Of a stretch of DNA of 64,000 bases, positions 6,901 through 20,662 are shown one piece after another (position 1 is the stretch's first letter; the number at the start of each line of letters is the position of its first letter). Origin of the DNA: Paenibacillus oralis (lineage in GTDB: Bacteria > Bacillota > Bacilli > Paenibacillales > Paenibacillaceae). Below the pieces are notes generated by a model. That model was not told the origin of the DNA, did not search any database, and worked only from the letters and a program-made list of their open reading frames with translations. The DNA is taken from the NCBI RefSeq assembly GCF_003863965.1, contig NZ_RRCN01000001.1, positions 6,631,071 to 6,695,070 of the forward strand, written 5' to 3'. A program made the position numbers and the translations under genes.

Positions 6901-7069
6901 GGCCGATATGCGGCATGCCGTTGGCGGTCGGCGGCCCTTCAAAAAACACATAGTTGGGGCGTCCCGCGCGGTTTTCGATGCTGCGCTTGAACGTGTTCTC
7001 CTGCTTCCATTTGCCCAGAATGCGCAGGTCCCGCGCACGGGCGTTTTCCTTGACATCCACTTTTTTCAT
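3974..7069 (-). CDS. ileS: Isoleucyl-tRNA synthetase, long (type 2 / eukaryote-like) form
   Basis: Class Ia aminoacyl-tRNA synthetase charging tRNA-Ile. The adenylation motifs are visible: HIGH at residues 54-57 and KMSKSKGN at 590-597. CPCCQTS and two CxxC pairs (CPDCGG, CPHCEGG) lie between them. At about 1031 residues it is about 110 longer than B. subtilis IleS. It lacks the C-terminal Cys-rich zinc module of the common bacterial type and reads GWDTHGLPVE then KQWREFTEAIAYWVDLDDPY, all of which fits the eukaryote-like IleRS2 clade. The ATG at 7069 is better spaced from AAAGGA than the in-frame TTG at 7078. Expression should be controlled by the T-box upstream. The type 2 assignment is by eye. 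Confidence 0.95.
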   Translation of the reverse strand: MKKVDVKENARARDLRILGKWKQENTFKRSIENRAGRPNYVFFEGPPTANGMPHIGHVLGRVIKDFVGRYQTMKGYRVVRKAGWDTHGLPVELGVEKELGISGKQEIEKYGIEEFIKKCKDSVFGYEKQWREFTEAIAYWVDLDDPYVTLNNSYIESVWNILATIHDKGLLYKGHRVSPYCPCCQTSLSSHEVAQGYEDVKDLSATAKFKLDDTGEYVLAWTTTPWTLPAHVALAMNPDMEYARVQQEDGVYIVAKNLVEKVMKGGFNVLSTHKGAEFIGKTYTPPFGYIKADKINVIVGASFVTDASGTGIVHMAPAHGEDDYRTCRENGISFVSVVNGQGRYTDAVSDFAGRFVKDCDLDIVKMLSEKGLLYSKEKYEHSYPFCWRCKSPLLYYAMESWFIETTAVKDQLIANNNSVEWYPGHVREGRFGKFLEDLVDWNISRNRYWGTPLNVWVCPDCGGQFAPHSLAELREHAVGHVSEDLELHKPYVDEVKVRCPHCEGGVMERTSEVIDVWFDSGSMPFAQHHYPFENEQTFAEQFPADMICEGIDQTRGWFYSLLAVSTLFTGKAPYKAVIATGHVLDENGQKMSKSKGNVIDPWDIINEFGTDAFRWALLSDSAPWNSKRFSKGIVAEAKSKVVDTLVNTHAFLTLYAGIDGYKPEEHPLRPSANKLDRWILSRLNSLILVVDKALPVNDFVNAAQAIEGFIDELSNWYIRRSRDRFWGSGLGEDKLSAYQTLTGVLLTLSKLIAPFAPMLAEDIFTNLGGGDSVHLADFPQADESLIDLALEKDMESARQIVELARNVRNETGIKTRQPLSSLIVSMDRDFAVADYEEIIKDEINVKAIEIETSDSGFVDFTLKLNLKVAGKKYGKNVGFLQGYLKGLSADETRAIVDSGRFTVTSPEGEELTVTADELLIEKQAKPGFASASGYGITVALNTDITPELEQEGWVREVVRAVQDTRKKLDLPIEKRVHLSLDVDDELKAAITAFENVLRENVLITDVAFVRLDESAEKADLGTKSIGISIQA

Positions 7070-7164
7070 GGCTTCCAAACATCCTTTCGTTGATCTTCAT
7101 GGGAAAACATAAGGCTCAAAGCCAAAATCGGCGCTTGGCCGATGCGGCCAGGAAGTGGGGGCGG

Positions 7165-7421: not shown

Positions 7422-7451
7422 AAAAAAAGCCCCGTCCCTAAGGGACGAGAC
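7422..7451 (-). terminator. T-box intrinsic terminator
   Basis: On the minus strand GTCTCGTCCC-TTA-GGGACGGGGC makes a 10-bp stem (two G-U pairs) followed directly by seven T residues. Its 5' arm is only a few bases after the T-box core GGTAACGCGAGCC, so it is mutually exclusive with the antiterminator. Confidence 0.9.
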
Positions 7452-7604
7452 CTGGCTCGCGTTACCACCCTTGTTTCATGCGTCTTCCGCCGAACGATAC
7501 GCCTCCGCGCGAAAAGAGCATGACAACTTGATCCCATACGCTTCATATGGGGTCGGTGTAACGGCCGACAACCGGCAAAACTTACTCTTTCCACTACTAA
7601 GGAA

Positions 7605-7771
7605 GTCAAAATATCGGCTTTTGATCACGAAGCTGATCGAGATGCCGATACGACGTCGAATCTTGAATTCAGCAGGGCCTTCCGGTGCTCACGTACCCAA
7701 AACGTACGCTCCGCTCCTCAGTCCCTAGCTTCATCCAACCTTCTCGGTGCTGAAAAGCCGCTATTTTGAAC
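7605..7771. repeat. 167-bp foldback element, copy 1 (inside the T-box leader)
   Basis: The ends are imperfect inverted repeats: TCAAAATATCGGCTTTT at the left and AAAAGCCGCTATTTTGA at the right (one mismatch in 17). The core, about 100 bp, is nearly the same as that at 19344-19510, including CTCAGTCCCTAGCTTCATCC and GTCGAATCTTGAATTCAGC. Both copies are exactly 167 bp, but their terminal arms differ. The inner hairpin keeps pairing despite changes (CGTAC/GTACG here, CGTAGG/CCTACG there). The left 21 bases recur perfectly at 7790-7810, just outside the right end. No open reading frame of note. MITE-like or structured-RNA element; the family is not recognised. Confidence 0.8.
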
Positions 7772-7789
7772 ACCCATCTTACAAAAAAA

Positions 7790-7810
7790 TCAAAATATCG
7801 GCTTTTGATC
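7790..7810. repeat. 21-bp direct copy of the left end of the 167-bp element
   Basis: The 21 bases starting TCAAAATATCGGCTTTTG match 7606-7626 exactly. On the minus strand this copy is itself a short ATCAAAA/TTTTGAT hairpin followed by seven T residues, so it could act as a weak terminator or pause site between Stem I and the element. It may be a relic of a second element or of the insertion event. Confidence 0.7.
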
Positions 7811-7975
7811 TTTCCTTATTTGGAAATTCAGCTTTGCTTCTCCGGGAGGATATTCCGACTGCGCTTTGAACGTTGGCTTTCAGCGGGCCGCCAACTCTCT
7901 GGGGAACAAAATCGCAGCGTACTGGTTCCCTTCATCGAATCCAATCGATTCAATTGCAAATTCAGTATGTCTATA

Positions 7976-8005
7976 GTTATAACGCATTCGCCAGCCGCAT
8001 GTCAA
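7976..8005 (-). promoter_or_regulatory. Sigma-A promoter of the ileS T-box transcript
   Basis: The minus strand reads TTGACA (8000-8005), an 18-bp spacer and TATAAC (7976-7981). It lies just downstream of divIVA and immediately upstream of the T-box Stem I sequence. The perfect -35 and its position make it the natural start of the leader. Confidence 0.75.
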
Positions 8006-8030
8006 TATTCACTAGAGGTTGTAACACGCA

Positions 8031-8543
8031 TCAATACAGTTCCTGAACCTCTTGCCCTTTATCTACGGTACGCTCGCGCTCGCGCGTTTCCAGCGCATCC
8101 CAGCTGTCGCTGCTGAGCAGATCGAGCTGAGCTTCCACAAGCGTACGGAATCTGGCCCGGTAGATGGAAGCCTGTTTTTTCAGCTCTTCGACCTCCATGG
8201 CGATCTTGCGCGATTTGGCCAGCGATTCGTTGACGATCCGGTCGGCGTTTTTCTCCGCTTCCTTCACGATCAGCTGCGCTTCCTTTTTCGCGTTGTTTTT
8301 CACTTCATCCGCCGCTTCCTGGGCGACGATGATCGTTTTGCTCAGCGTTTCTTCAATATTGGCAAAGTGATCCAATTTCTCCTGCATGGCAAGCAGCTGA
8401 TTGTGAAGCTCCTTATTCTCCCGGATCACGATTTCGTAATCTTTGATTACCTGGTCAAGAAATTCGTTAACTTCATCCTCGTCATAACCGCGAATACGTC
8501 TGGAGAACTCCTTGTTATGTATATCCAGCGGCGTTAATGGCAT
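8031..8543 (-). CDS. divIVA: Cell-division/polarity protein DivIVA
   Basis: Coiled-coil scaffold that binds negatively curved membrane at septa and poles and recruits division and sporulation factors. The 170-residue protein begins MPLTPLDIHNKEFSRRIRGY, the conserved membrane-binding N-terminus, with GYDEDEVNEFLDQV. Long heptad-rich helices follow. The start at 8543 has a strong AGGAGGTG site; an upstream in-frame ATG (8567) has none. It closes the ylm operon and is followed by ileS, the usual Firmicute order. Confidence 0.96.
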   Translation of the reverse strand: MPLTPLDIHNKEFSRRIRGYDEDEVNEFLDQVIKDYEIVIRENKELHNQLLAMQEKLDHFANIEETLSKTIIVAQEAADEVKNNAKKEAQLIVKEAEKNADRIVNESLAKSRKIAMEVEELKKQASIYRARFRTLVEAQLDLLSSDSWDALETRERERTVDKGQEVQELY

Positions 8544-8673
8544 GATCCCCACCTCCTCAAATTTCAAAACTTCCCGACGGGCGGGAAGGCGTTAGATACG
8601 ATTCACGATATATGCTTTATGGAACAGTCCGAACTATTAATTCGACAAGAATCCGCCATCTCCTGCAAAACCT

Positions 8674-9456
8674 TCACACAAATTTGCCGATTTTGACACG
8701 ATGCCGGCCTTTTTTCGTAAGCCCTTCCGCTTCAAGCACTTTAAAACGGCCGAACCCCTGCAGCGCCACGATGTCGCCTGCCTTAAGCGGCTTCGAGGGG
8801 TCCTCCTCCGTCCGCCAGTTGACCCGGCAGCGGCCCGCTTTGATCGGAATCATCACTTTGCTGCGGCTTAAATGGAATACATCGCTCACAATTCCGTCCA
8901 GCCTTAACGAAGCCACCGTCAAATCCATCGGTTCGAGCTCTTTTTCCGCCGTTTTCAGCTCGCTTGGCTCCAAAATATCCGTGATCACGCCAACCCGATG
9001 CACCTGATGAAGATTTAAATTGAGAAACGGGGCGATCTCTTCGGCGACCACGACATGGCAGCCGTCTTCACGCACATGAATGTCGCCGATTTTATCCCGC
9101 TTCAGTCCAAGTCCCAAAATAGCGCCTAAATAGTCTCCATGCTGGAGCGAAGTGAATTTTTGGTCTCCCGAGGTAATGCTGAGCACTTTCAGTCCCATCG
9201 GCTCCTGGCTAAGATCCCGGTAATCCGGGGCAACGAGCGCCCGGCGGCGCTCCGCATCTTCGTGCCCGCCGTCAAACCGGATTTGCACATCCGGGTGGCG
9301 GTTTGCCAAAGTTTCCAAAATAAAACACTGCCGCGGATCCAGGAAGTCGCTTCGCTTGACCTCATGGTATTCCCCGGCATTCGTTACCCATTCTGAGGCC
9401 CGGTCGGCAAAGGGGCGCTCCTCCGGCCTGAAATGTTCGTATATGTCTGCCCGCAT
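8674..9456 (-). CDS. ylmH: YlmH, S4-domain RNA-binding protein
   Basis: RNA-binding protein of the division-linked ylm operon. Recent work on B. subtilis YlmH links it to rescue of ribosomes with obstructed nascent chains (a ribosome-associated quality-control factor). The 260-residue protein has a family-specific N-terminal region. Its C-terminal S4 domain (from about residue 180: LTVASLRLDGIVSDVFHLSR) ends GRFKVLEAEGLTKKGRHRVK. It sits between yggT and divIVA as in other Firmicutes. The ribosome binding site is weak, so translation may depend on coupling. Confidence 0.92.
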   Translation of the reverse strand: MRADIYEHFRPEERPFADRASEWVTNAGEYHEVKRSDFLDPRQCFILETLANRHPDVQIRFDGGHEDAERRRALVAPDYRDLSQEPMGLKVLSITSGDQKFTSLQHGDYLGAILGLGLKRDKIGDIHVREDGCHVVVAEEIAPFLNLNLHQVHRVGVITDILEPSELKTAEKELEPMDLTVASLRLDGIVSDVFHLSRSKVMIPIKAGRCRVNWRTEEDPSKPLKAGDIVALQGFGRFKVLEAEGLTKKGRHRVKIGKFV

Positions 9457-9465
9457 ATATCTAAA

Positions 9466-9735
9466 CTACCCGAAGACATAAATCAAAAGGGTTTTTAATC
9501 CGAAGGAAGCCAGCCAAAGTGCCAATAAGGCAACAATCGGGGAAAAATCAATCATCCCCAGAGGCGGTACAATTCGGCGAAACGGGGCCAAATAAGGCTC
9601 AACCAATTTCCCGAGAATTTCACCAATAAAGCTTTCACGCACATTCGGAACCCACGACATAAATATATAGATTATTATCATCCAATAATAAATTCTATAT
9701 ATTACGTCAACTACATCCAACAAAGTTCCTACCAA
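9466..9735 (-). CDS. yggT: YggT-family membrane protein (YlmG)
   Basis: Small (89 residues) integral membrane protein of unconfirmed function, implicated with SepF/YlmE-linked division genes. It has two hydrophobic helices (YWMIIIYIFMSW and IVALLALWLASFGLKTLLI) and the family motif EPYLAPFRRIVPPLGMIDFSPI. The start is TTG, supported by GAGGTG eight bases upstream that overlaps the end of sepF. It is part of the sepF-yggT-ylmH-divIVA unit. Confidence 0.9.
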   Translation of the reverse strand: MVGTLLDVVDVIYRIYYWMIIIYIFMSWVPNVRESFIGEILGKLVEPYLAPFRRIVPPLGMIDFSPIVALLALWLASFGLKTLLIYVFG

Positions 9736-9742
9736 GCTGTCA

Positions 9743-10189
9743 TCACCTCATTCTGTTGTAATCGGAATCCTCGGCCAGCATTTCCGTGATGGATCCTTGA
9801 ATCTCGACCGTATCCGGCGTGCACAGGAAAATATTGCTGCCGATTTTGGAGATGCTTCCGCTAAGCGCGTAAATCGTCCCGCTTAAAAAGTCGATAATGC
9901 GCAAGGCTTGGTCATTCCGGACCCGCTGCAAATTAACCACCACCGACCGGTGGGAGCGCAGATGGTCGGCGATTTCCTGGGCCTCGTCGTAGGAACGAGG
10001 TTCGTAAAGGATCACTTTTACGTTTTTCTGGGAGTGAATGCTGACTACGTTGCTTCCTCTTTGATTTTTACGGGGTTCAAAGCTTGGGGTTTCAATTTCG
10101 TCCTCCTGGGCGGGAAATTTTTCCCGCTCCACGATTTCTTCTTCCTCTTGAAGTCCCAGAAAATTCATGAACCGGTTCATGACTCCCAT
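9743..10189 (-). CDS. sepF: Cell-division protein SepF
   Basis: FtsZ-binding membrane anchor that bundles and bends FtsZ filaments at the septum. The 148-residue protein starts MGVMNRFMNFLGLQEEEEIV, the amphipathic membrane-targeting helix. An acidic linker follows, then the SepF domain (NVKVILYEPRSYDEAQEIAD, VNLQRVRNDQALRIIDFLSG). The start is fixed by a TAATG overlap with the ylmE stop and a GGGGAAGAG site; the longer in-frame ATG upstream is not needed. It works with FtsA and FtsZ encoded about 22 kb away in this window. Confidence 0.95.
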   Translation of the reverse strand: MGVMNRFMNFLGLQEEEEIVEREKFPAQEDEIETPSFEPRKNQRGSNVVSIHSQKNVKVILYEPRSYDEAQEIADHLRSHRSVVVNLQRVRNDQALRIIDFLSGTIYALSGSISKIGSNIFLCTPDTVEIQGSITEMLAEDSDYNRMR

Positions 10190-10881
10190 TACGTCTCTTC
10201 CCCTTTCCCTACTAAAAGAGTACCGAGGCGCACCCATGTCGCCCCTTCTTCGATCGCCACCTCAAAATCTCCCGACATCCCCATCGACAATTCCGTCAGC
10301 GGTCCCCAGAGCCCGCCCCGCGCGTTCAGCTCGTCCCGCAGCTCCCTGAGCCTCCGGAAAACCGGTCTGGCCAATTCCGGATCATCCACAATCGGCGCCA
10401 TCGTCATGAGGCCGATGATTTTAACATGAGTCAGATCAGCGGTCTCCCGCAGAAAGGCGGCCGCTTCCTCCGGCGCTACTCCCTGCTTGGAGGCTTCGCC
10501 GGAAACATTGACCTGCAAAAAAGCGGAAACAGTCTGATCCAGCGCCGCCGCCCGCTTTTCCAATTCCTTGGCTAACGACAGCCGGTCCAACGAATGAACG
10601 TATTGAAATCTCCCGACGACGTCCTTCGCTTTGTTGCTTTGCAAATGGCCGATAAAATGCCATATCCCTTGTCCGCCAAGCGCTTCCCATTTGGGCACCG
10701 CCGTTTGGGGGCGATTTTCGCCGATATGAAGTATCCCTTCCTCCAACACGGAACGGGTCATGTCCGCCGATACGTATTTGGTGACGGCAACGATATTTAC
10801 GTCATCGCGGTTTCTTCCGCTCCGCTTGCAGGCCGCTTGAATGCGATCTTCCACCAGTTCTATCCGTTCTTTCAGCGACAA
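10189..10881 (-). CDS. ylmE: YggS/YlmE-family PLP homeostasis protein
   Basis: Alanine-racemase-fold PLP-binding protein that buffers pyridoxal phosphate; no enzyme activity is established for the family. The 230-residue product shows VAVTKY with the PLP lysine, WHFIGHLQSNKAK, and the C-terminal LSMGMSGDFEVAIEEGAT signature. The start is probably TTG at 10881 (MSLKERIELVEDRI), which has GAGAGGTGA seven bases upstream. A GTG at 10893 overlaps the ylmD stop (GTGA) but is too close to that site. Confidence 0.9.
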   Translation of the reverse strand: MSLKERIELVEDRIQAACKRSGRNRDDVNIVAVTKYVSADMTRSVLEEGILHIGENRPQTAVPKWEALGGQGIWHFIGHLQSNKAKDVVGRFQYVHSLDRLSLAKELEKRAAALDQTVSAFLQVNVSGEASKQGVAPEEAAAFLRETADLTHVKIIGLMTMAPIVDDPELARPVFRRLRELRDELNARGGLWGPLTELSMGMSGDFEVAIEEGATWVRLGTLLVGKGEET

Positions 10882-10889
10882 AGAAAGGA

Positions 10890-11744
10890 TCACCTCTCTT
10901 TCATGCCAATCCAGCTCGCCATCCTCCCCGTCACCCCGTTATGCTTGCGGTACGAGTAAAACATTTCCGGACGGCAGCTTGTACACCACGTTGTACATTC
11001 GATATGAGTCGGCAATATTCCTGCTTTTATCATAATGATTCGATTCATTTCTTTCAAGTTCAGCATTGTTTTGCCTTCGTTTTTGGACGGCGCCGAAATC
11101 GCAGTCCCTTGCATATCCGGCTCCGGGCCGGGCAGCGCCTCCCTGACTTTGCCCATCACCGCTTCGTCCACTTCATAGCAGCATCCCCCGATGCTCGGGC
11201 CGATCGCCGTCCGAATGTCGGAGCGGCGGCTGCCGAATTCGCGCTCCATCGTTTCGATCATCTTCCCGGCGATGAGCTGGACGGTGCCCTTCCAGCCGGC
11301 ATGCGCCAAGCCGACGGTTTTGGTGACCGGATCGGCAAAATAGAGCGGAACGCAATCGGCATAAAAGGAAGCCAGCAGGACGTCCGGCACGTTCGTCAGC
11401 AGCCCGTCCGTCGCCTGGAACGCGCTGCTCCGGTCCAAGTGACCTTTGCCGCGGTCCTCCTGCCGAACGATGGCGATCTGCGAGCCGTGCACCTGTTCGC
11501 CGCAGGTCCAGCTCTCCGGCGGAAACCCGAGCGCCCGGGCCAGGCGCCGCCGGTTTTCCAGTACGCCCAGCGGATCGTCTCCGACATGGTACGCCAAATT
11601 CAAACTGTCATAGGGAGGTTTGCTAACGCCCCCGCCGCGTCCGGTAAAGCCGGCGCTTAGGCCCGGCATCAGCCCGCGCCAAGCCTCCAGCTCAAAACGC
11701 TCCGGCTGCTGATTTATAGCATTTCTTATAAACGGTTCCATCAT
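10890..11744 (-). CDS. ylmD: YfiH/YlmD laccase-domain protein (PgeF family)
   Basis: Cu/Zn laccase-fold protein; family members act on purine nucleosides or edit UDP-MurNAc-peptide during wall synthesis. The 284-residue protein has VHGSQIA, the metal-site blocks YADCVPLYF and HAGWKGT, and IGPSIGGCCYEV, all conserved in the family. It heads the ylmD-ylmE-sepF-yggT-ylmH-divIVA string. AAGGGAGATGG precedes the paired ATGs. The exact substrate is not decidable here. Confidence 0.9.
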   Translation of the reverse strand: MMEPFIRNAINQQPERFELEAWRGLMPGLSAGFTGRGGGVSKPPYDSLNLAYHVGDDPLGVLENRRRLARALGFPPESWTCGEQVHGSQIAIVRQEDRGKGHLDRSSAFQATDGLLTNVPDVLLASFYADCVPLYFADPVTKTVGLAHAGWKGTVQLIAGKMIETMEREFGSRRSDIRTAIGPSIGGCCYEVDEAVMGKVREALPGPEPDMQGTAISAPSKNEGKTMLNLKEMNRIIMIKAGILPTHIECTTWCTSCRPEMFYSYRKHNGVTGRMASWIGMKER

Positions 11745-11806
11745 CCATCTCCCTTTGATCGGTTTGCTTTCTTAAGTGTACCATAATTCGATTTGCCTTT
11801 CGCGGA

Positions 11807-12118
11807 TCAGCCGCGCCGTTCCGTCCGGCCGTCCCGGTCGATGTACACGGTTGTTTCGTAGGGAGATTGCACCCTTGACTCCCGCAGTTCTTCCATCTTG
11901 ACGAGCACGACGTCGGAGCCGATTTTCACGATATTTCTCCAGGGAATGATCAGATCGCTGCCGCCGCCGAACAATCCCATGAATTTCGTATTTACCGGTA
12001 CGACGATCGCCTCGATTACGCCCTGCCGCAAATCCAGCTCCAGGTCGCTGATATGCCCCAGCCTTTTTCCGTCCACCACGTTAATGACATCCTTGGTCTG
12101 AAAATCGGATATTTTCAT
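11807..12118 (-). CDS. ylmC: YlmC/YmxH-type PRC-barrel protein
   Basis: Short PRC-barrel protein of the YlmC/YmxH sporulation-associated family. The likely start MKISDFQTKDVINVVDGKRL matches the usual family N-terminus and has GGTG nine bases upstream; an ATG at 12142 would add eight residues. The body shows LGHISDLELDLRQGVIEAIV, IIPWRNIVKIGSDVVLV, and a charged tail ending TVYIDRDGRTERRG. It normally lies next to sigG; here a flavin reductase and a MerR gene lie between them. Its role is unknown. Confidence 0.85.
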   Translation of the reverse strand: MKISDFQTKDVINVVDGKRLGHISDLELDLRQGVIEAIVVPVNTKFMGLFGGGSDLIIPWRNIVKIGSDVVLVKMEELRESRVQSPYETTVYIDRDGRTERRG

Positions 12119-12229
12119 ACTCGCTCTCACCACATTGTCCATCGTTTTACCGCCCCCGTCCCGCCTAATACTTTCCGTCCCTTTACTATATGATCCAGCT
12201 TTTCCCCTGATGCGCTTATGACAGCGGGA

Positions 12230-12278
12230 AAAGGGACCTTCCCGAAGTTCGCGGCGGTCCGCCCGGAAAAGTCCCTTT
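12230..12278 (-). terminator. Hairpin terminator of the flavin reductase gene
   Basis: On the minus strand AAAGGGAC and GTCCCTTT pair, with a second inner pairing of TTTTCC and GGGAAG around a GC-rich loop; CCCTTTTCCC follows. It lies directly after the stop at 12290. The T-tract is broken by C residues. Confidence 0.5.
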
Positions 12279-12289
12279 GCTTGCAAAGC

Positions 12290-14239
12290 TTATTTTGCGA
12301 GAGCGCCGGCCGCTGCGTTTTCGCCGCCGAGACGCCCCGAGGTAAACGAGTAGCCGATGCCTACGCCGTTGCCGACATAAGTATCGTTAAACAGCACGCC
12401 TTCGGATTCGAGCCCAACCGCATAAAGCCCCTTGATCGGCACCCGTTCATTATTTAGAACCTGGAATTTGGTATTGACGAGAAGGCCGCCAACCGAACCG
12501 AGATTGTTGATTTCGGCGATAATCGCGTAATAAGGTCCCTCGCCCATCGGAATCAGGTATTGTTTAGCTTTGCCGAATTCCGTGTCTGCGCCGGTTTTTG
12601 TCGCCTCAGTATAGTTGTCGAAGGCCTCCTTGAACACCTCGGCGTCCATCCCGGCGCTTTGAGCCAATTCCTCGATCGTATCGCCTTTATAACCGTCACC
12701 GTTTTTCACCATGGATTCAAATACTTGCTCCGCGTTTTTCCATGGCGTATCGAGCTTGAATTGAGCGGTGAAGTCGGCGTAAAATTCCGGCGGCATCCCC
12801 GGAAGTCCCGGAGCTTTGACGCCGTTCATCCCTTTCGCTTCCAGAGCGTCAAGCTGCGATTTCGAAACGATGACCAAATGATACGGGCCGTTAAAGGCGC
12901 TCGTATTCGCAGCGGCCACCGACGTCAATGTGGCCGCCTCGTCCCTGAATCTTGCCCCGGAAGGCCCCACGTTCATCAGCGTCGGAAGATAGCTCAGCAT
13001 CAGCGGATAGCTGGCTTCAAATGAAGAATATTGCTTTTTCAGGCCGCTCGTCGCTCTCGCCAGCGTCTGATGCAGCATTTGCCCGCCGAAGTTGTCCGGA
13101 ACCTTGGCGCCGGCCGCCCAGGACATTTTCAGCCCTTCCCCGATGTTCTGGCCGAGGCCGCCGTTTACGCCTTCAAAACCAAACGCTTCCTTGACCATTT
13201 CCTTGTTGCCCGCGTACCCGCCTGTCGCCATGACCACGCTTTTGGAGGAAATTTCCAGAGCGGTTCCATCGGCCTTCTCTGCTTTCACGCCGACGACCAC
13301 GCCGCTCGCATCGGTCACCAGCGCTTTGGCGGTCGTTTCGGTAATGACCTGGCCGCCGTTTTTCTCTACGGACGCGGCCAGCATCTTGCGCAGCGTTTGC
13401 TCCCGCGTATCGTAAGTCGGAAGCACATGAAGCTGTTCCCCGGCAAAGTTCAGGAACGTCGTGACATAACCTTTGCTTTTCAGCCAGTCGTAAGTATCGC
13501 CGGATTTGGTGACATACTGGCGGATCGCCGCAGCATCCACACGCCAGTGGTTGTTCGCGATCCAATCGGCGATTTCTTTCTCGATATTCACTTTTACCCC
13601 GTTTTCAACCGCGGCGGACGAATTGTAAAACTTGCCCGCCCACGACAAATTGCTGGCGCCGCCGATGACGGCGGTTTTTTCCACGATGATGACCTTGGCC
13701 CCTTTATCCGCTGCCGTAACCGCGGCCGACACGCCGGATGCGCCCGCGCCAACAACGACGACATCAGCCTGCAGCTTTTCTGTTTTTCCCTCGCCGGCTT
13801 TGGCAACGCCGCCCGATTTCAGGGCCGTTAAATCCCCGCCCGCCTGCTGTACGGCCTTTTCCACGGCGGTCAATATCGCTTCGCTCGACTCGCTGGCGCC
13901 GCTGACCGCGTCCACCGCCAACGTTTGGTTTTGCAGGATTTGCTCTTTGATTTTTTCGAGCGCGGCATCACCCAGTCCTTCCGTTTCGGTTTGGCTGACG
14001 ATTTGGATATCCTTGATTTGATCCGGCTGCTCCATCGTGACTTCTACTTTGACCGTTCCGTCTTTCCCCTCGGCTTCCCCCGTATACGTCCCGGCTTTAA
14101 ACGAAGATTGTTCCGGCGTGGACGATGGGCCCGATTTCTGAGAATTCCCCGTTGACTCGCATCCGCTTAGCATGGAAACCACCAACGCAAGACAAACGGA
14201 AAACACAAACCATGATTTGAACCGTTTTTTGACGCTCAT
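12290..14239 (-). CDS. Exported flavin-dependent reductase lipoprotein (FMN-binding plus fumarate reductase-type FAD domain)
   Basis: A 649-residue lipoprotein. The signal peptide ends in LSGC with Cys27 as the lipidation site. An FMN_bind domain (about 48-135) has the flavinylation-type motif DAVSGASES, with Ser116 where most relatives have Thr. A FAD_binding_2/flavocytochrome c domain (from about 158) has VVVVGAGASG and IVEKTAVIGGASN and ends GLYAVGLESEGVLFNDTY. The family reduces fumarate, urocanate or related enoates outside the membrane, using electrons passed through covalently bound FMN. The acceptor is not identifiable. It is preceded by a MerR-type promoter and merR, and both are inserted between ylmC and sigG. 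No ApbE flavin transferase is in the window. Confidence 0.85.
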   Translation of the reverse strand: MSVKKRFKSWFVFSVCLALVVSMLSGCESTGNSQKSGPSSTPEQSSFKAGTYTGEAEGKDGTVKVEVTMEQPDQIKDIQIVSQTETEGLGDAALEKIKEQILQNQTLAVDAVSGASESSEAILTAVEKAVQQAGGDLTALKSGGVAKAGEGKTEKLQADVVVVGAGASGVSAAVTAADKGAKVIIVEKTAVIGGASNLSWAGKFYNSSAAVENGVKVNIEKEIADWIANNHWRVDAAAIRQYVTKSGDTYDWLKSKGYVTTFLNFAGEQLHVLPTYDTREQTLRKMLAASVEKNGGQVITETTAKALVTDASGVVVGVKAEKADGTALEISSKSVVMATGGYAGNKEMVKEAFGFEGVNGGLGQNIGEGLKMSWAAGAKVPDNFGGQMLHQTLARATSGLKKQYSSFEASYPLMLSYLPTLMNVGPSGARFRDEAATLTSVAAANTSAFNGPYHLVIVSKSQLDALEAKGMNGVKAPGLPGMPPEFYADFTAQFKLDTPWKNAEQVFESMVKNGDGYKGDTIEELAQSAGMDAEVFKEAFDNYTEATKTGADTEFGKAKQYLIPMGEGPYYAIIAEINNLGSVGGLLVNTKFQVLNNERVPIKGLYAVGLESEGVLFNDTYVGNGVGIGYSFTSGRLGGENAAAGALAK

Positions 14240-14334
14240 GATGCTACTCCCCCTATCCCATAATTCGAAGCCGCAAAAAAGTGATTATTTTCACATAACA
14301 ATGCGTATTTCCGTAATCGGCCAGCTTCAAAAAA

Positions 14335-14365
14335 AGTCTAAACCTTGGTGCGGCACCAATGTCAA
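14335..14365 (-). promoter_or_regulatory. MerR-type promoter of the flavin reductase gene
   Basis: On the minus strand TTGACA (14360-14365) and TAGACT (14335-14340) are separated by exactly 19 bp. The spacer holds the palindrome TTGGTGCCGCACCAA. A 19-bp spacer occupied by a dyad is the hallmark of promoters that need MerR-family activators to realign them. It lies directly downstream of merR and upstream of the reductase. Confidence 0.85.
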
Positions 14366-14388
14366 CTCCTTTGGGGAGACGCTGCCTA

Positions 14389-15201
14389 TTACAAGACCGG
14401 AATATTAACCTCCAGAAACGAACGTTTTTTCCCCTCCCGGTTTTCCGTCAGCATCAGCTTTCCGATCACGTCGCCGCAAATCGAATAGCCCTGCTCGTCC
14501 ACATAGTCCAACATAAATTGCAGCGCGTTTTTCGTAAAATGATCTCCATCCGCGGATGCAATGACCGCCGAAACGCAATTGGACGCAGGGATAAATTCCA
14601 AATGATCGTGGATTTCCAGGCCAAGCTCCCCGGCATCGCCCTCCGATACCGTGATCCCCCAACTGTACTCCAGGTTATCCGTATTGTTCGCCAGGACGGC
14701 CTCCCGTTCGATGCGGAAGCAATAAAACGTATACGGGAGCATTTCCATCAAAGCGTTAACCGTTTTTTCCAATCCGCGGTTTTTCAGCAGACTGTTTTTG
14801 TCGGTTTGCTTCAAGCGGTATAAACCGGGCTTCTGTTTGAGGCTGCACCGGTAAAGGGACGCTTCGATCGATTGGATCTCCTCGTTCAGCTCGTCCAATT
14901 TATTCAGCAGCATCGTGCTTTTGCGGATCTCCTCCTTAAGCTGCTGCCGGCTGTCCTCCAGCTTCTCCGATATGGCGTATACCGAAGAATGCTTGATGAG
15001 TCCGGCCACGTCCTGCAAAGGGATTTGCAAGCTGCGGTACCAACGGCTCATCAACAAATCCCTGGCGTCCAAATCGTTAAAATACCGGTAGCTGTTGTTA
15101 TGATCTTTCACCGGCCGAACGATGTCATGCTTTTCGTACAGCCGCAGCGTATCCCTCGTAATGCCTAGAAGTGAAGAAAACTCGCCGATGCAATATTTCA
15201 T
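14389..15201 (-). CDS. MerR-family transcriptional regulator
   Basis: A 270-residue regulator with an N-terminal MerR winged helix (YCIGEFSSLLGITRDTLRLY, then YRYFNDLDARDLLMSRWYRS). A long dimerising coiled coil (about 85-140) follows, then a C-terminal ligand domain of the GyrI/BmrR size, with CVSAVIASADGDHF and VDEQGYSICGDVIGK. It is expected to bind the 19-bp-spacer promoter immediately downstream and activate the exported flavin reductase on sensing a small molecule. GGAGGGGGACGC precedes the ATG. The ligand is unknown. Confidence 0.85.
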   Translation of the reverse strand: MKYCIGEFSSLLGITRDTLRLYEKHDIVRPVKDHNNSYRYFNDLDARDLLMSRWYRSLQIPLQDVAGLIKHSSVYAISEKLEDSRQQLKEEIRKSTMLLNKLDELNEEIQSIEASLYRCSLKQKPGLYRLKQTDKNSLLKNRGLEKTVNALMEMLPYTFYCFRIEREAVLANNTDNLEYSWGITVSEGDAGELGLEIHDHLEFIPASNCVSAVIASADGDHFTKNALQFMLDYVDEQGYSICGDVIGKLMLTENREGKKRSFLEVNIPVL

Positions 15202-15323
15202 GCGTCCCCCTCCGTCCGTCTCAATCCGCGCTAATGCTTCATACTAATTTTACAGAAGCTTGACGATAGGAAGATATGGAGTTGTTCACAACGATCGTAA
15301 GCCAGTCTGGCGCGCAGTTCCAT

Positions 15324-15347
15324 TAAAAAAAGGCCCCCAAGGGACCT
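15324..15347 (-). terminator. Intrinsic terminator of sigG
   Basis: On the minus strand AGGTCCC-TTG-GGGGCCT forms a 7-bp stem (one G-U pair) followed by seven T residues, starting five bases after the sigG stop. Confidence 0.85.
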
Positions 15348-15352
15348 CTCAT

Positions 15353-16135
15353 TTACGACTTCACATGTTTCTGCATTTGTAAAATGGCGGATTTCTCAAG
15401 CCGGGATACCTGGGCTTGGGAGATGCCGATCTCATCGGCCACCTCCATTTGCGTCTTGCCTTCAAAAAAACGCATGGACAGGATCATTTTCTCGCGGCGT
15501 CCGAGCCGCTGCATCGCTTCGCGCAAAGCGATCTCCTCAATCCACGACACATCCTTGTTCTTGTCGTCGCTGATTTGATCCATGACGTAAATCGGGTCTC
15601 CCCCATCATGGTAAATCGGCTCAAACAGCGATACCGGGTCCTGGATCGCGTCCAGGGCAAACACGACATCTTCCTTTGGCAAACCAAGCGCTTCCGAGAT
15701 TTCGAAAATCGTGGGCTCCCGCGAGTTTTGGTTGGTCAGGTTGTCCCGCATTTGCAGCGCTTTGTAGGCGATATCTCTGAGGCTGCGGGATACGCGGATC
15801 GGGTTGTTGTCGCGCAAGTACCGGCGGATTTCCCCGATGATCATCGGCACCGCGTAGGTGGAAAACTTCACGTTTTGCGATAAATCGAAATTATCGATGG
15901 CTTTCATGAGTCCAATGCAGCCCACCTGGAACAGGTCGTCCACATACTCCCCCCGATTGTTGAATCGCTGGATGACGCTCAGCACGAGTCTCAGATTGCC
16001 ATTCACTAACTTTTCTCTGGCTGATCTTACGTGGTCCTGCTGCAATGAGTGGAACAATTCACGCATTTCCGCATTGGTTAGAACGGGCAATTTTGCGGTA
16101 TCGACACCGCAAATTTCGACTTTGTTTCGGGTCAT
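15353..16135 (-). CDS. sigG: Sporulation sigma factor G
   Basis: Forespore-specific RNA polymerase sigma factor of late sporulation. The 260-residue protein begins MTRNKVEICGVDTAKLPVLT, nearly the canonical SigG N-terminus. Region 2 has FQVGCIGLMKAIDNFDLS and YAVPMIIGEIRRYLRD; region 4 ends QMEVADEIGISQAQVSRLE. It follows sigE, as in Bacillus. Its GGGAGG ribosome binding site abuts, and is partly inside, a perfect hairpin, a likely block on translation of read-through mRNA from spoIIGA-sigE. Confidence 0.97.
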   Translation of the reverse strand: MTRNKVEICGVDTAKLPVLTNAEMRELFHSLQQDHVRSAREKLVNGNLRLVLSVIQRFNNRGEYVDDLFQVGCIGLMKAIDNFDLSQNVKFSTYAVPMIIGEIRRYLRDNNPIRVSRSLRDIAYKALQMRDNLTNQNSREPTIFEISEALGLPKEDVVFALDAIQDPVSLFEPIYHDGGDPIYVMDQISDDKNKDVSWIEEIALREAMQRLGRREKMILSMRFFEGKTQMEVADEIGISQAQVSRLEKSAILQMQKHVKS

Positions 16136-16147
16136 CGTGTCTTACCT

Positions 16148-16183
16148 CCCAAGGAGTAAACTAATGATCATTATCTCCTTGGG
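16148..16183 (-). promoter_or_regulatory. Hairpin overlapping the sigG ribosome binding site
   Basis: CCCAAGGAG (16148-16156) and CTCCTTGGG (16175-16183) are perfect 9-bp arms around TAATGATCATTA, itself a 12-bp palindrome. On the mRNA the 3' arm ends in the first three G residues of the GGGAGG site for sigG, so the site is partly sequestered. In B. subtilis a leader stem-loop is known to keep spoIIG read-through transcripts from making sigma-G early; the same logic is inferred here. Confidence 0.7.
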
Positions 16184-16228
16184 CTGTATTTTTATTCCTT
16201 GCATGAACCGCCCTTGAAGGCCGGGCAA

Positions 16229-16951
16229 CTACACCATCTTATTGAATTCCTTGCGCAAGCGCTTGATGATCCTTTTTTCGAGACGGGAAATGTAGGACTG
16301 GGAAATTCCGAGCAGATCGGCCACATCCTTTTGCGTTTTCTCGTCCCCGTCCACCAGGCCGAACCGCAGCTCCATAATCATTCGCTCCCGTTCGCTCAGC
16401 TTGTCGAGCGCTTTATGCAGCAGCTTACGATCCACCTGCTCCTCGATATTGCGGTAAATCGTATCGTTCTCCGTTCCCAGCACGTCGGACAGCAGCAGCT
16501 CATTGCCGTCCCAATCGATATTGAGCGGCTCATCAAAGGAAACTTCGGTACGGATCTTGCTGTTGCGGCGCAAATACATCAGGATTTCGTTTTCGATGCA
16601 GCGCGAAGCGTACGTGGCGAGTTTAATCTTTTTCTCCGGATCAAAGGTGTTGACCGCCTTAATCAGGCCGATGGCTCCGATCGAGACCAGGTCTTCGATA
16701 TTGATGCCGGTGTTTTCAAACTTTCTGGCGATGTACACGACGAGCCGCAAATTGCGTTCGATCAGCATCGCCCGGATGGCGGAGTCGCCGCTTGGCAGCC
16801 GCTGGAGCAAATACTCCTCCTCTTCGCGCGTCAATGGGGGCGGGAGCGCTTCGCTTCCGCCTATATAATAGATTTCCTCGCTTTTTAGTCCGAATATAAA
16901 CAACAACCGATAGTACTGAAGCTGCAGCAACAACTTCCATTTTGCACGCAT
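16229..16951 (-). CDS. sigE: Sporulation sigma factor E precursor (pro-sigma-E)
   Basis: Mother-cell sigma factor of early sporulation, made inactive and cleaved by SpoIIGA. With the start at 16951 (GGGAGG upstream) it has 240 residues, against 239 in B. subtilis. The N-terminus [20 protein letters not shown] is the hydrophobic pro-sequence, followed by [20 protein letters not shown], which contains the expected processing region. Regions 2 and 4 are intact ([39 protein letters not shown]). It is co-directional with spoIIGA upstream and sigG downstream. Confidence 0.97.
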
Positions 16952-17008
16952 GATTTCGTTCCTCCCATACATGTTCCCGTTTTTACTGGTGAAATCCGGA
17001 CCGTCCGC

Positions 17009-17998
17009 TTACGTCCGCGAAGCGGGGGCCAGCCCGGAGGAAATGTCCGGCGGATGATGATGCTCCGCTTCCGTACCTTCTACTAACGCAGGATGCACGA
17101 TGGCCCGATAGGCCCCTTCCGATGATAAACGTCCTCCGTCCAATCCGATAAGCACCCGGGTAGAATGATAATTCCGCCCCTCCAAAGTTATGCTGACTTC
17201 GTCCGGCTTAAGCGCAAGCATAAATTGCGTTCCCTTGTTGATTCCGCGGTACGGCACCAGACGCAACCGCTCCGGCCAGGGAAAAGCCCCGGCTTCCGTC
17301 CATTCCATGATGAGGTTGTCCGCCCGCTCCTTAGCAAGCTTGCCGCGAAAAGCTGGAGGAAGCAGTTCTTCCCACAACGAAACCTCCATCACCATTACCG
17401 GCAATCGGCTGAGCGGATCGGATAACTGGTTGCCCGTATCGACCAGACCCGAACAGCGAACCTCGGAATCTTCAATACGCACCCGGACCTCTCCGACAAA
17501 AGAGGAGATTCGTTCCTGCCGATGACGCGCCGCGATGACCCGCTTAAACCACCATAACACGGCAAAAAACAGGACAAGCGTAAACAAGGCCCCAATCTTC
17601 AGCGAAAACCCCAGCCCTCCGGTCGCGGAATACCATATTCCGTTCCACAGGTCGCCATAGTCTTGGAGCAAATAATGAACGCCCAGGATCCCGCCCGCCG
17701 CCGCAAAATTAACGATGTAAAAAGCTCCCATGTTCCGCAGATAGTTTTGTAAACTGCCAAAGCCGAAGGCGATCCATAACATAGCGACAGAGAACAGGAA
17801 CTTGATCAGAAACGTATACAAAAACTCAAGCTCCGGCAAAAACATCATGACGACATACATGGCTCCAACGCTAGCCGAAACGGCGATCCGCCATACTTTG
17901 ATCTTCTGTTTCCGCATCCATGCCGTAACCAGCAGCAAACTTGCGTCGATCAATAGGTTCATCGCAAATAGGAGATCGATATAAACAACCAACGGCAT
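17009..17998 (-). CDS. spoIIGA: Sporulation sigma-E processing protease SpoIIGA
   Basis: Membrane aspartic protease that activates pro-sigma-E at the septum. The 329-residue protein has an N-terminal half with about five transmembrane segments (residues 5-150). Its soluble domain contains the active-site triad DTG at 187-189 in GLVDTGNQLSDP. It precedes sigE as in other spore formers. Its usual upstream neighbour, ftsZ, is about 14 kb away here because a sugar island is inserted. Candidate Spo0A boxes lie upstream. Confidence 0.96.
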   Translation of the reverse strand: MPLVVYIDLLFAMNLLIDASLLLVTAWMRKQKIKVWRIAVSASVGAMYVVMMFLPELEFLYTFLIKFLFSVAMLWIAFGFGSLQNYLRNMGAFYIVNFAAAGGILGVHYLLQDYGDLWNGIWYSATGGLGFSLKIGALFTLVLFFAVLWWFKRVIAARHRQERISSFVGEVRVRIEDSEVRCSGLVDTGNQLSDPLSRLPVMVMEVSLWEELLPPAFRGKLAKERADNLIMEWTEAGAFPWPERLRLVPYRGINKGTQFMLALKPDEVSITLEGRNYHSTRVLIGLDGGRLSSEGAYRAIVHPALVEGTEAEHHHPPDISSGLAPASRT

Positions 17999-18023
17999 TC
18001 ACCTGCCTGGGGAGATGCTTATC

Positions 18024-18090
18024 AGTATAAAGAGATTGGCTTATAAAGTCTGTCTAAAATTGAAAGCAGAAACCCACTATTTTTGTCGAC
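18024..18090 (-). promoter_or_regulatory. Candidate Spo0A-controlled spoIIG promoter
   Basis: Upstream of spoIIGA the minus strand has TATACT (18024-18029) as a -10. Two 0A-box-like heptamers lie further up: TGTCTAA (18051-18057) and TGTCGAC (18084-18090), as read on the plus strand, each one mismatch from TGTCGAA. They fall near -37 and -70, with no good -35, which resembles the Spo0A-dependent B. subtilis spoIIG promoter. Confidence 0.45.
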
Positions 18091-18160
18091 CTAAGGGACT
18101 TGCACGTGCATGACGCGTAAAATGAAGAACGGGGGCATGTAACTGGCTGCTGTGAGGTCT

Positions 18161-19312
18161 CTAAACTTTAGCCCCCTGTTTGCCCCACAGCCGTTCCATT
18201 TCCGTACTGGCCAGGAGCAACGGGGCGATCCCCATCAGCACATCGCTGACGACCGCTTCGCTCAAGTAATACGCGTACGAGCCGTCGCGGTACTTGGCTC
18301 CGCCGAGTCCGGCGCCGTGACAGATGCCATGAAGATGCACGCCCTCCCCGTCCATAGTGACAAACTGTGTCAGAACCCCTGCATACGCCCGCTCAACCGC
18401 CGATTGGGGCAGCCCCGACAGATAGCCGAGCCGAATGCCTTTGGCCAGGGCATAGGTCAACATACAGGAGCCTGACGCTTCCAGATAGTTGCCTTCACGG
18501 GCGTTGCAGTCCATCACCTGATACCACACGCCGCTGCCGGCATCCTGCACCTTCCATACCGCCTGAGCCATGCGCTCGAAGATGCCCATCACTTGTCCGC
18601 GCTGCGGGTGGTTCAGCGGAAAATGCTCCAGGGAATCAACCACAGCCATCGCATACCAGCCCATGGCGCGGCCCCATACATGCCTGGACCGCCCGATCGC
18701 AGCGTCGCACCATCGCTGCTCCCGGCTCTCATCCCAGGCATGGTGCAACAGCCCGGTTTCCGGATTGCGCGTGTACCGCTCGGCCAACAGCAACTGGCGG
18801 GCCGCTTCGTCAAACCAGCGTTCCTCTCCGAAGGTTGCCGCATATTCGGCCATAAACGGCGAAGACATATACAAACCGTCCAGCCACATTTGGAACGGGT
18901 AAATTTTCTTATGCCAATAGCCGCCCTCCTCCGTCCGCGGCTGGCCGGTCAGTTGCACCGCGAGCAGCTGCGCCGCTTTTTTGTATTTCCCGACGCCCGT
19001 TTCGCGCCATAACCTCAGCAGATTTTTCCCCATGTTGATATGATCCAGATTATAATCTTCCAGAGCATATTCACCTCCGATAAAACCATCCTCAGAGATG
19101 AATAGATCGATATGCCGCTTCACAAACTCCTGATACGCCGTGTCCTGCGCCCAGTCGCTCAACCGGCTGAGGGCCGTCAGCGCCATGCCGGCCACATAAC
19201 CCCACTTGCCCGCGATATCGGAATGATAGCCGTCTTTGCTTTTCGATAGAATGGTATCGGCGATGTTCACGGACATCCGTCCAGTCCCACGATGGATCGT
19301 TTCCAACTGCAC
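18161..19312 (-). CDS. GH105 unsaturated rhamnogalacturonyl hydrolase (YteR-like)
   Basis: Cytoplasmic (no signal peptide) (alpha/alpha)6-barrel enzyme that removes the unsaturated uronic acid from lyase-generated rhamnogalacturonan or pectin oligosaccharides. The 383-residue protein has the family blocks FQMWLDGLYMSSPF with the expected catalytic Asp, SRHVWGRAMGWYAMAV, EGNYLEASGSCM and GICHGAGLG. The start is GTG with AAGGAG upstream. It is the last gene of the island on this strand; a 167-bp repeat element separates it from the oligogalacturonate lyase gene. Confidence 0.9.
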   Translation of the reverse strand: MQLETIHRGTGRMSVNIADTILSKSKDGYHSDIAGKWGYVAGMALTALSRLSDWAQDTAYQEFVKRHIDLFISEDGFIGGEYALEDYNLDHINMGKNLLRLWRETGVGKYKKAAQLLAVQLTGQPRTEEGGYWHKKIYPFQMWLDGLYMSSPFMAEYAATFGEERWFDEAARQLLLAERYTRNPETGLLHHAWDESREQRWCDAAIGRSRHVWGRAMGWYAMAVVDSLEHFPLNHPQRGQVMGIFERMAQAVWKVQDAGSGVWYQVMDCNAREGNYLEASGSCMLTYALAKGIRLGYLSGLPQSAVERAYAGVLTQFVTMDGEGVHLHGICHGAGLGGAKYRDGSYAYYLSEAVVSDVLMGIAPLLLASTEMERLWGKQGAKV

Positions 19313-19343
19313 GATATTCTCTCCTTTCCGGCTTATAGAGGTT

Positions 19344-19510
19344 GTTCAAAAAGTCGTCTTTCCATGACGAAGCCGTTCATGTAGTGGATCAGGCGTCGAA
19401 TCTTGAATTCAGCCGGGCCTTCCGTTGCTCACGTAGGTTTGCCTACGCTCCGCTACTCAGTCCCTAGCTTCATCCAACCTTCTCGGTCCTGTAAACCCAA
19501 CTTTTTGAAC
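19344..19510. repeat. 167-bp foldback element, copy 2
   Basis: Bounded by inverted ends GTTCAAAAAGT and ACTTTTTGAAC. It shares the core of copy 1 (7605-7771) in the same orientation and is exactly the same length. The inner stem CGTAGG-TTTG-CCTACG is perfect. It fills almost the whole gap between the GH105 and oligogalacturonate lyase genes, so it would be transcribed within their mRNA. No target-site duplication is evident. Confidence 0.8.
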
Positions 19511-19516
19511 TCGCAC

Positions 19517-20662
19517 TTATAGCATAAACGGCGGCAACGAAGAGAAGTCCTCGGGAATCGCCGCCAGATACAGATTGGCATATCCGTTTTTGTCGCTGGT
19601 AAACAGCAGCCGCTTGCCGGCGGCGTCAAATCTCGGGTGCGCGTGCACCTTTTGCGAATGGAAACTGCAACGCAGCTCACACAGCGTCCGTGGCCCATCG
19701 TAGATACCGTTGTTTTTGCGCCATAAGCTTAACGTTCGGACCGGACCCTTGCCGTCCACAACCGCCTGCCCCAGGCCGTCCGCATAGCTGTGCCAGGTGT
19801 CGAAAGAAAATTCCGTTTCTTCCATGCCCGTATTATCATAAAGAATGCTGCCGAAAAAGTTGGTGCCATTCACGCGAAACCCGTGATACCCGATCGTTTT
19901 TCCGTCCGGGAAAAAGAATTCGTGCCCTACCTTTTCTCCCGGCTCCAGACGCTCCCGGATCTTCCACGTTTCACCCGTACGCAGGTCAAGCCCCCAGATT
20001 CGGTGGTCAACCAGATGCCAAGGCCCCTCATGACAATATGTGATCAGCCACGGTTCCGTCGGCGAAGCGTTAATGTGCGTGATGAACTGGCGCGCTTCGT
20101 AGATCATCTCGGCGCCGCCATTTGCCGCATCAATGCGCATGATCATGCTGTGGGGAGCCGCCTCCATCAACTCGCGGTGTCCGACATAGCCGTTCCCCAA
20201 ATCCAACCGGATACGGTGGGAGAGGTCCTCCTGAACGCAGGTCAGCACATACCGGTTATCCGCCGATGCGCCGGCATTGCCCAAGTTATAGCCCGGCGGC
20301 GCTTCGTACAGAAACTTCTCCTCCAGCGTGGCCAGATCCAGCCGGACCAGCCGCCGGCCCGCCTTGACGATCACCGCGCTCCCGTTCGGCAAAATCCAGG
20401 CGCCAAGTTCATCGTTGTTCGGATAATCCGTCAACTGGGTCATTTCTCCGCTCTCCACGTCCATGCTGAACAAATTCGTGCTGTTGCCCCGGTCCGAGAG
20501 GAACAGCAACCGCCGTTCGCCGTCATACCAGCCGCTTTCGGTAAAATATAAATGATAGCTATGCGCCTTATAATCCGTCAGTTGAACCACTTCAACCCCC
20601 GTAAACCGATCCTGATACGTCTTGCGTTCCGAGGGCCATACCTCTCCTTTTCCCTTTCCCAT
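19517..20662 (-). CDS. ogl: Oligogalacturonate lyase (PL22-type beta-propeller)
   Basis: Cytoplasmic lyase that cleaves (unsaturated) digalacturonate and short oligogalacturonates into keto-uronic acids. The 381-residue protein has propeller-type repeats (LLFLSDRGNSTNLFSMDVES, LLFTSDKNGYANLYLA). Its PL22-like central region FITHINASPTEPWLITYCHE runs into GPWHLVDHRIWGLDLRTGE, containing the His residues expected at the metal site. No signal peptide. With the GH105 enzyme it would finish degradation of imported pectin fragments. Confidence 0.82.
   Translation of the reverse strand: MGKGKGEVWPSERKTYQDRFTGVEVVQLTDYKAHSYHLYFTESGWYDGERRLLFLSDRGNSTNLFSMDVESGEMTQLTDYPNNDELGAWILPNGSAVIVKAGRRLVRLDLATLEEKFLYEAPPGYNLGNAGASADNRYVLTCVQEDLSHRIRLDLGNGYVGHRELMEAAPHSMIMRIDAANGGAEMIYEARQFITHINASPTEPWLITYCHEGPWHLVDHRIWGLDLRTGETWKIRERLEPGEKVGHEFFFPDGKTIGYHGFRVNGTNFFGSILYDNTGMEETEFSFDTWHSYADGLGQAVVDGKGPVRTLSLWRKNNGIYDGPRTLCELRCSFHSQKVHAHPRFDAAGKRLLFTSDKNGYANLYLAAIPEDFSSLPPFML

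Follow-up and report, generated by a model that had tools for sequence, protein, structure and literature searches.

What kind of element has a nearly identical centre in its two copies and quite different terminal arms that nevertheless pair with each other inside each copy? Two such 167-bp foldback copies lie in a 64,000-nucleotide stretch of the Paenibacillus oralis genome (contig NZ_RRCN01000001.1, positions 6,631,071 to 6,695,070 of the forward strand; this whole stretch is called the window, and window positions are counted from its first letter). An initial annotation, made from the sequence alone, weighed a folded RNA or DNA foldback under selection against a routine miniature inverted-repeat transposable element (MITE). 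The paired change does go beyond shuffled expectation, but the either/or proved false, and the evidence points to both. The family is mobile, has definable ends, covaries in its core, occurs within T-box leaders and has been retained at one site in several species. We consider it probable that these copies belong to a MITE family and that, inside transcripts, selection favours an RNA core that folds on itself.

Both copies first reported (7605-7771 and 19344-19510) exist, and alignment upheld their equal length, same orientation and conserved core (79% identity). The arms pair inside each copy, in copy 1 as TCAAAATATCGGCTTTT vs TCAAAATAGCGGCTTTT with a single mismatch, and the inner stem is altered on both sides (CGTAC/GTACG vs CGTAGG/CCTACG). 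The copy number, however, is not two. A core search found many copies in the host genome and in its relatives; in the host, at least 45 BLAST matches were obtained at E≤0.001 (∼40 copies, five of which yield two pieces each), a lower bound since 40 of the 115 candidates were scored. Sites resembling the left end number 89 in the host at up to 2 mismatches, whereas the reversed pattern gave 3. From flank alignment, the true ends are GAGGTWGTTCAAAAAGTC on one side and GACTTTTTGAACWCGCAC on the other, 6 bp further out per side than first given, and terminal inverted repeats are present (GAGGTWGTTCAAAAAGTC vs GTGCGTGTTCAAAAAGTC). In the end fitting, 91 clusters were reduced to 81: 9 whose ends could not be recognised were set aside, and duplicates were merged.

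The initial annotation had seen no clear target-site duplication. Copy 2 is in fact flanked by TTATA on both sides (Table 1); at copy 1 a duplication is no longer recognisable at either end. Of the host copies, 45 measured 100-300 bp and fitted the family ends with few errors; an exact 5-bp duplication was found in 18 of these, and at least four of the five positions matched in 23. Agreement between the 5-bp flanks amounted to 163 of 225 against 133.0 after shuffling, a value as high as the observed one being reached in 0 of 2000 shuffles. The duplicated 5 bp are often TWNNA. Three empty sites were also recovered. One is in the window itself (Table 1). Another is found in P. mellifer and P. 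rubinfantis, which are without the 102-bp copy present in P. timonensis (L094; imperfect duplication CTGAA/TTTAA), and the third is a single TACTA in Paenibacillus sp. GM2 at the place where sp. D2_2 has a copy (flanks 77% identical). Because of the many copies, the 5-bp duplications, the three comparisons of empty with filled sites and ends like those of an insertion sequence (IS), we conclude that the family, which has no transposase of its own, is a MITE, that is, a non-autonomous DNA transposon.

The fixed length claimed for the element is true of its basic form, which measured 167-173 nt in 99 of 101 core copies, a set chosen by anchor distances that shut out longer forms and in which identical sequences were kept once. 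It does not extend to the other copies, which range from 35 to 292 bp and in which whole hairpin modules have been gained or lost; those of 35-55 bp retain scarcely more than the ends. If the repeats were stand-alone small RNA genes that had spread by duplication, the conserved fold and the steady basic length would be accounted for, but these end-only copies, the IS-type ends and the three empty sites, at which insertion came with 5-bp duplications, make this highly improbable, and for the Paenibacillus copies the empty sites rule it out. Larger arrangements were seen as well. Head-to-tail tandem arrays occur in relatives (L107 17322-18228, L100 2225-2581 and L224), the array of L107 consisting of five core copies with a 184-bp spacing. 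Four copies (L056, L065, L074 and L075) carry an extra insert after TTTTGA, starting AAGATATAAG and followed by CTTATATCGCAAGAA in three of them and by a close variant in L075; this insert is a further hairpin-like module.

The transposase that moves the family in Paenibacillus would be of the DUF772/DDE kind, related to IS5 and IS1182, which would recognise ends like GWGNNTGTTCRAAAAG and duplicate 5 bp. The evidence comes from a distant genome of the same phylum, G649, in which nine fetched contigs begin or stop within a repeat ending GAGTCTGTTCGAAAAG or GAGCCTGTTCGAAAAG, and in which MITE copies end, for example, in GAGGWTGTTCGAAAAG and GTGWGTGTTCGAAAAG. The GAGTCTGTTCGAAAAG end is followed by the start of a transposase with DUF772, the GAGCCTGTTCGAAAAG end sits behind a transposase end, and a longer piece (L302) matches DDE_Tnp_1. 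Judging from the matching protein pieces, both end types would belong to one IS. The nearest NCBIfam models were those of IS1182 (70.2, cut-off 270) and IS5 (36.8, cut-off 140), both below their cut-offs. Two negative results count against this assignment. The G649 IS was not seen in full on any fetched contig, and no IS with the exact ends of the element was found in the host by end pattern, by the open reading frames (ORFs) beside some ends (read at 10 loci in one round) or by DUF772, with 1 of the 3 host DUF772 loci read and other transposase families not searched. Of 30 DUF772 loci that were fetched, from the host and its relatives, none had the ends of the element; some had ends of the type GAGGCTGTCCCAAAAG. 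The initial annotation held that a full-length IS whose ends are simply these arms would make the element a routine MITE; near-equal ends exist in G649 and none were found in the host, and the transposase-bearing relative that it suggested looking for is present as pieces, with near-identical ends, in G649 only. At another locus (L069) an end-like site lies beside ORFs for two transposases, presumably IS110-like and IS256-like, which are probably later insertions.

What sets the family apart is its core. With RNAalifold, 35 pairs were predicted on the plus strand of 37 copies, 17 of them changed on both sides, and the minus strand folded better (-36.7 vs -17.9 kcal/mol). The same was observed with the 101 copies, whose consensus energy was -33.2 for the minus and -9.3 for the plus strand, and in which 29 of 55 pairs showed more than one Watson-Crick type. 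After thinning at 93% identity, 55 core copies were left; in these, 96.2% of 2085 cells were paired, compared with 26.6-42.0% when the partner was slid by 1-3 columns. Two-sided changes were present in 16 of 38 pairs and in 87 cells (20.8 when shuffled), and 0 of 500 shuffles reached any observed value. The covariation alignment proposed in the initial annotation gave strong two-sided change. The RNA fold reads from the minus strand, opposite to the one that was described. In this fold the arms make up the outer stem; the other parts are a three-way junction, a small second hairpin and a long stem with interruptions, whose GGA/GA internal loop is conserved. Among the pairs predicted on both strands (44, counting Watson-Crick-majority ones), G-U outnumbered A-C by 145 to 32 cells and by 20 to 8 columns (p = 0.036). 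The minus-strand RNA is likely to be under selection.

The position of copy 1 gives this fold a context. It is part of a 238-nt insert in the T-box leader of a gene which, by its sequence, we take to be ileS; the insert occupies the loop of what is the second hairpin in the Rfam model, called Stem II. The RNA-like minus strand of copy 1 is the sense strand of ileS, and the element would form an apical extension of Stem II. Copy 1 has an orthologue in P. macerans (L089 13952-14131). The host is, as judged from one protein, a close relative of that species, because the protein encoded at 10890-11744 is 95% identical to its counterpart in P. macerans MER 50.2 (among the best 80 of 160 loci). In related species the element occupies the same ileS-leader site, with arms that are changed yet pair.

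How far the antiterminator lies from the end of Stem I was measured at 80 loci (the best 80 of 160; 6 had no antiterminator in range, 1 had no Stem I mark, and one of 188 nt was set aside). The distance was ∼140-172 nt in most of them. Long distances were found in P. macerans (333 nt), in two P. timonensis strains and P. mellifer (300-302 nt), and in Fontibacillus panacisegetis (313 nt), where the element may be an independent insertion. Parts of the element persist in the ileS leaders of P. phocaensis (204 nt) and P. rubinfantis (242 nt), and no element match was found in that of P. barengoltzii (182 nt). Three loci (L104, L106 and L109) have a copy upstream, near the ileS leader and apparently outside it. 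The stem that closes Stem II was predicted in all nine leaders with an insert, a remnant or an extra hairpin, the window included, and was predicted in three uninserted control leaders too. Empty leaders, leaders with the full insert and leaders with shortened remnants make the ileS T-box a natural series: a transposon has become part of a gene switch, and its later changes in pairing can be traced at one site.

In the host genome RF00230 gave 23 matches, and copies are clearly present in two of these T-boxes (the ileS and leuA leaders) and probably in a third. The second leader (L042, C1:1615647-1616134; 94.4 bits) precedes a gene that we recognised as presumably leuA and has the copy in the Stem II loop, within a 226-nt insert. 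In the third (L036, match C1:6725753-6725984) the start of Stem I was read beyond the element, and the copy probably lies within Stem I, the portion beyond it having been assigned by eye; it speaks against this case that Rfam gave no match at E 1e-4 and that later only the 3′ part aligned well (35 bits). In the distant genome G419, a copy is part of a 168-nt insert in a T-box Stem II loop (103 bits) upstream of another presumed leuA, and in G012 a T-box match (C8:40962-41392) encloses an element match on the same strand (C8:41127-41255). All four T-box cases that were read have the element with its minus strand as the sense strand. The 20 other host T-box loci that were fetched gave no core match at E up to 1. 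As the T-box matches span ∼6.5 kb of the 8.1-Mb host genome, two or three holders look many, but their count is no test of excess because the family favours intergenic DNA. Element copies also lie ∼60-130 bp from further T-box matches, outside them (G012:C2:2646-2945, G012:C6:15562-15857 and G007:C1:1974765-1975000).

Outside T-boxes, the minus strand of copy 2 is co-directional with both flanking ORFs. In a set of 53 Paenibacillus copies of 120-300 bp, co-directional vs opposite orientations numbered 33 vs 16 with respect to the downstream gene (p = 0.02) and 25 vs 24 with respect to the upstream gene; 2 of the 53 lie between convergent genes. The fold is most probably explained by a life in transcripts: copies sit in leaders and operon gaps, where an inserted RNA would need to close on itself, and a closed fold would spare the neighbouring RNA domains. 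Because the copies sit in such places, we infer that RNA is produced from them and that the closed fold is what selection keeps. More than a routine MITE is indicated since the core covaries, the minus strand folds better with G-U in excess of A-C, and the changed arms of the old ileS copy pair.

Several observations pull the other way. When the alignment was thinned at 90% identity (39 copies), the shared pairs gave G-U and A-C in 52 and 20 cells and in 15 and 7 columns (p = 0.13); a column count of 16 vs 8 (p = 0.15) was also obtained with the 39 copies, and the structure predicted on the plus strand gave 21 vs 12 columns (p = 0.16). The two-sided changes, which were counted per sequence, may derive from few ancestral events spread by transposition, and transposase binding alone could keep the outer arms paired. 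The overall orientation bias is weak (22 co-directional vs 12 opposite among the 53 copies, p = 0.12), the ratio having fallen from 17:6 (55 rows) as more copies were called. The fading of the G-U excess after thinning would fit a plain MITE in which arms are corrected at the DNA level, by template switching in a hairpin or cruciform together with gene conversion, so that paired changes arise with no selection on RNA. So would the pair types, which switch almost without intermediates (pair 41-72 is UA in 32, GC in 21, AU in 1 and CG in 1, with none broken), and the appearance and disappearance of whole hairpins. In copy 1, both arms differ jointly from the P. macerans orthologue, and the additional arm copy beside it (Table 1), which is missing in that orthologue, looks like the footprint of a template switch or a duplication. 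We still regard DNA-level correction as an unlikely full account, given that G-U exceeds A-C in the full set, that some G-U pairs are fixed on the minus strand, that distant Bacillota and alphaproteobacterial repeats share the internal loop, and that an old copy has retained its fold in a leader RNA at one site. Selection for an RNA core that closes on itself remains our preferred explanation.

How far the core extends beyond the host was analysed with a covariance model, R1. It matched 118 of the 296 genomes in the order sample (19 of 48 genera) and 12 of the 398 in the phylum sample, 7 of these being outside the class of the host; five of these were read. With a pattern of the inner hairpin, 21 contigs were picked out of IMG/VR, all of which match R1 at ≥25 bits, some over the inner hairpin alone, scores that are not independent because the contigs had been chosen by the pattern; R1 found three extra IMG/VR places that the pattern had missed (24.6-33.2 bits). 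Two IMG/VR contigs used as queries retrieved plasmids of alphaproteobacterial genera only (36 records), and the hairpin alone retrieved 30 plasmid records, likewise from alphaproteobacterial genera. Both plasmid copies that were read lie between convergent genes. When R1 was run on 27 further loci (IS, MITE-end and plasmid), it matched in the two plasmid repeats only. The inner hairpin (L255) gave no match in E. coli or phage collections, the alphaproteobacterial copy L261 none in phages, and the distant Bacillota copy L235 none in plasmids. In several of the IMG/VR contigs (L253-L273) the inner hairpin lies beside a similar gene end, and the outer arms vary between contigs yet pair. Four IMG/VR contigs measure 14.5-15.0 kb, and our guess is that they are gene-transfer-agent clusters. 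Three copies in G419 and G670 (L238, L248 and L249) have the same core with differing ends (AAGCGCTGT/ACAGCGCTT; GAGACCGTT/AACGGTCTC), and a duplication is not evident.

The presence of one inner hairpin in two phyla suggests either that its RNA function is shared or that transposon families exchange modules. It is conceivable, though we hold it doubtful, that the interrupted-hairpin RNA core with its GGA/GA loop is a passenger module in Bacillota and Alphaproteobacteria, carried by MITE families whose ends are unrelated, that it is kept for a role in transcripts, and that T-box leaders have taken it up repeatedly (those of ileS and, in two distant lineages, of leuA, probably others too), where it is now part of the switch. 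That the core is itself a functional RNA, acting for example on RNA polymerase, RNases or a ribosomal factor to the benefit of the element or of a host gene, with the T-box cases as co-opted regulators, strikes us as quite unlikely: the inner hairpin in alphaproteobacterial repeats with unrelated ends and the sense orientation of all four T-box cases would agree with it, but no Rfam family matches the core, and activity, partner protein and expression are all hypothetical. With Rfam 15, the surrounding T-boxes alone match over element copies at gathering score, other matches being far below it; a known Rfam RNA is ruled out for the element itself.

Table 1. Positions of the element copies and associated features in the window
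Feature	Position	Strand	Basis
T-box leader holding copy 1	7438..7944	-	RF00230, 84.3 bits, E 1.4e-18; below gathering score of 93
Presumed ileS, behind the copy 1 leader	3974..7078	-	ORF
Copy 1, full element	7599..7777	-	Fuzzy match of its degraded ends to family ends, 5 and 3 errors (L009 670-848)
Additional left-arm copy of copy 1, just beyond its right end	7790..7810	+	Reading and P. macerans alignment
Copy 2, full element	19338..19516	-	L041 659-837 and reading of the window
Target-site duplication TTATA, left of copy 2	19333..19337		Reading of the window
Target-site duplication TTATA, right of copy 2	19517..19521		Reading of the window
Empty site TTAAA	954..958		P. macerans L089: 217-bp element between two TTAAA

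Literature searches on Paenibacillus MITE or REP sequences, T-box MITEs, alphaproteobacterial repeats, IS1182 MITEs and the hairpin sequence returned no description of the element, and as far as these searches go the MITE family is undescribed so far; for the hairpin sequence a single paper came up, on a microRNA and unrelated. As a widespread mobile element, it lets one ask why a transposon retains an RNA fold. The IS1182/IS5-type IS (DUF772 plus DDE_Tnp_1) of G649 resembles it in its ends, GAG[TC]CTGTTCGAAAAG, and in its mostly AT-rich flanks, but carries a transposase, which the element does not. The alphaproteobacterial interspersed palindromic repeats share the inner hairpin AGCGGAGCGTA-loop-TACGTGAGCA and differ in their ends, which in the two plasmid copies are GGRCCGATCGACATTCAG with CTAG-like flanks; these repeats are possibly of the RIME, Bru-RS or Caulobacter type. 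REP/BIME sequences are not known to have a target duplication. They are described as tagged palindromes of 20-40 bp (PMC3733652), and are ruled out here, the element being longer and having target duplications. The beta-proteobacterial repeat BRE appears similar in kind, by its description in an excerpt of the source (PMC3110155). The bcr elements of the Bacillus cereus group, compared here by their description, are interspersed repeats of 100-400 bp. According to the sections available, bcr1-bcr3 are MITE-like, bcr10 and bcr18 are predicted structured RNAs, MITE-like members are often found in untranslated regions (UTRs) or operon gaps with a mobility linked to a TTTAT motif, and some members have a conserved secondary structure in 5′ UTRs (PMC3446304, PMC6542083). 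The likeness is that of interspersed MITE-like repeats, some of them structured; the difference is that T-box residence and a cross-phylum core are mentioned for none of them in those sections (PMC3446304, PMC6542083). ERIC, Correia (NEMIS), BOX and RUP are likewise short structured intergenic repeats; they belong to other hosts, and the element analysed here has a fold with a three-way junction and a family that spans several Bacillota families.

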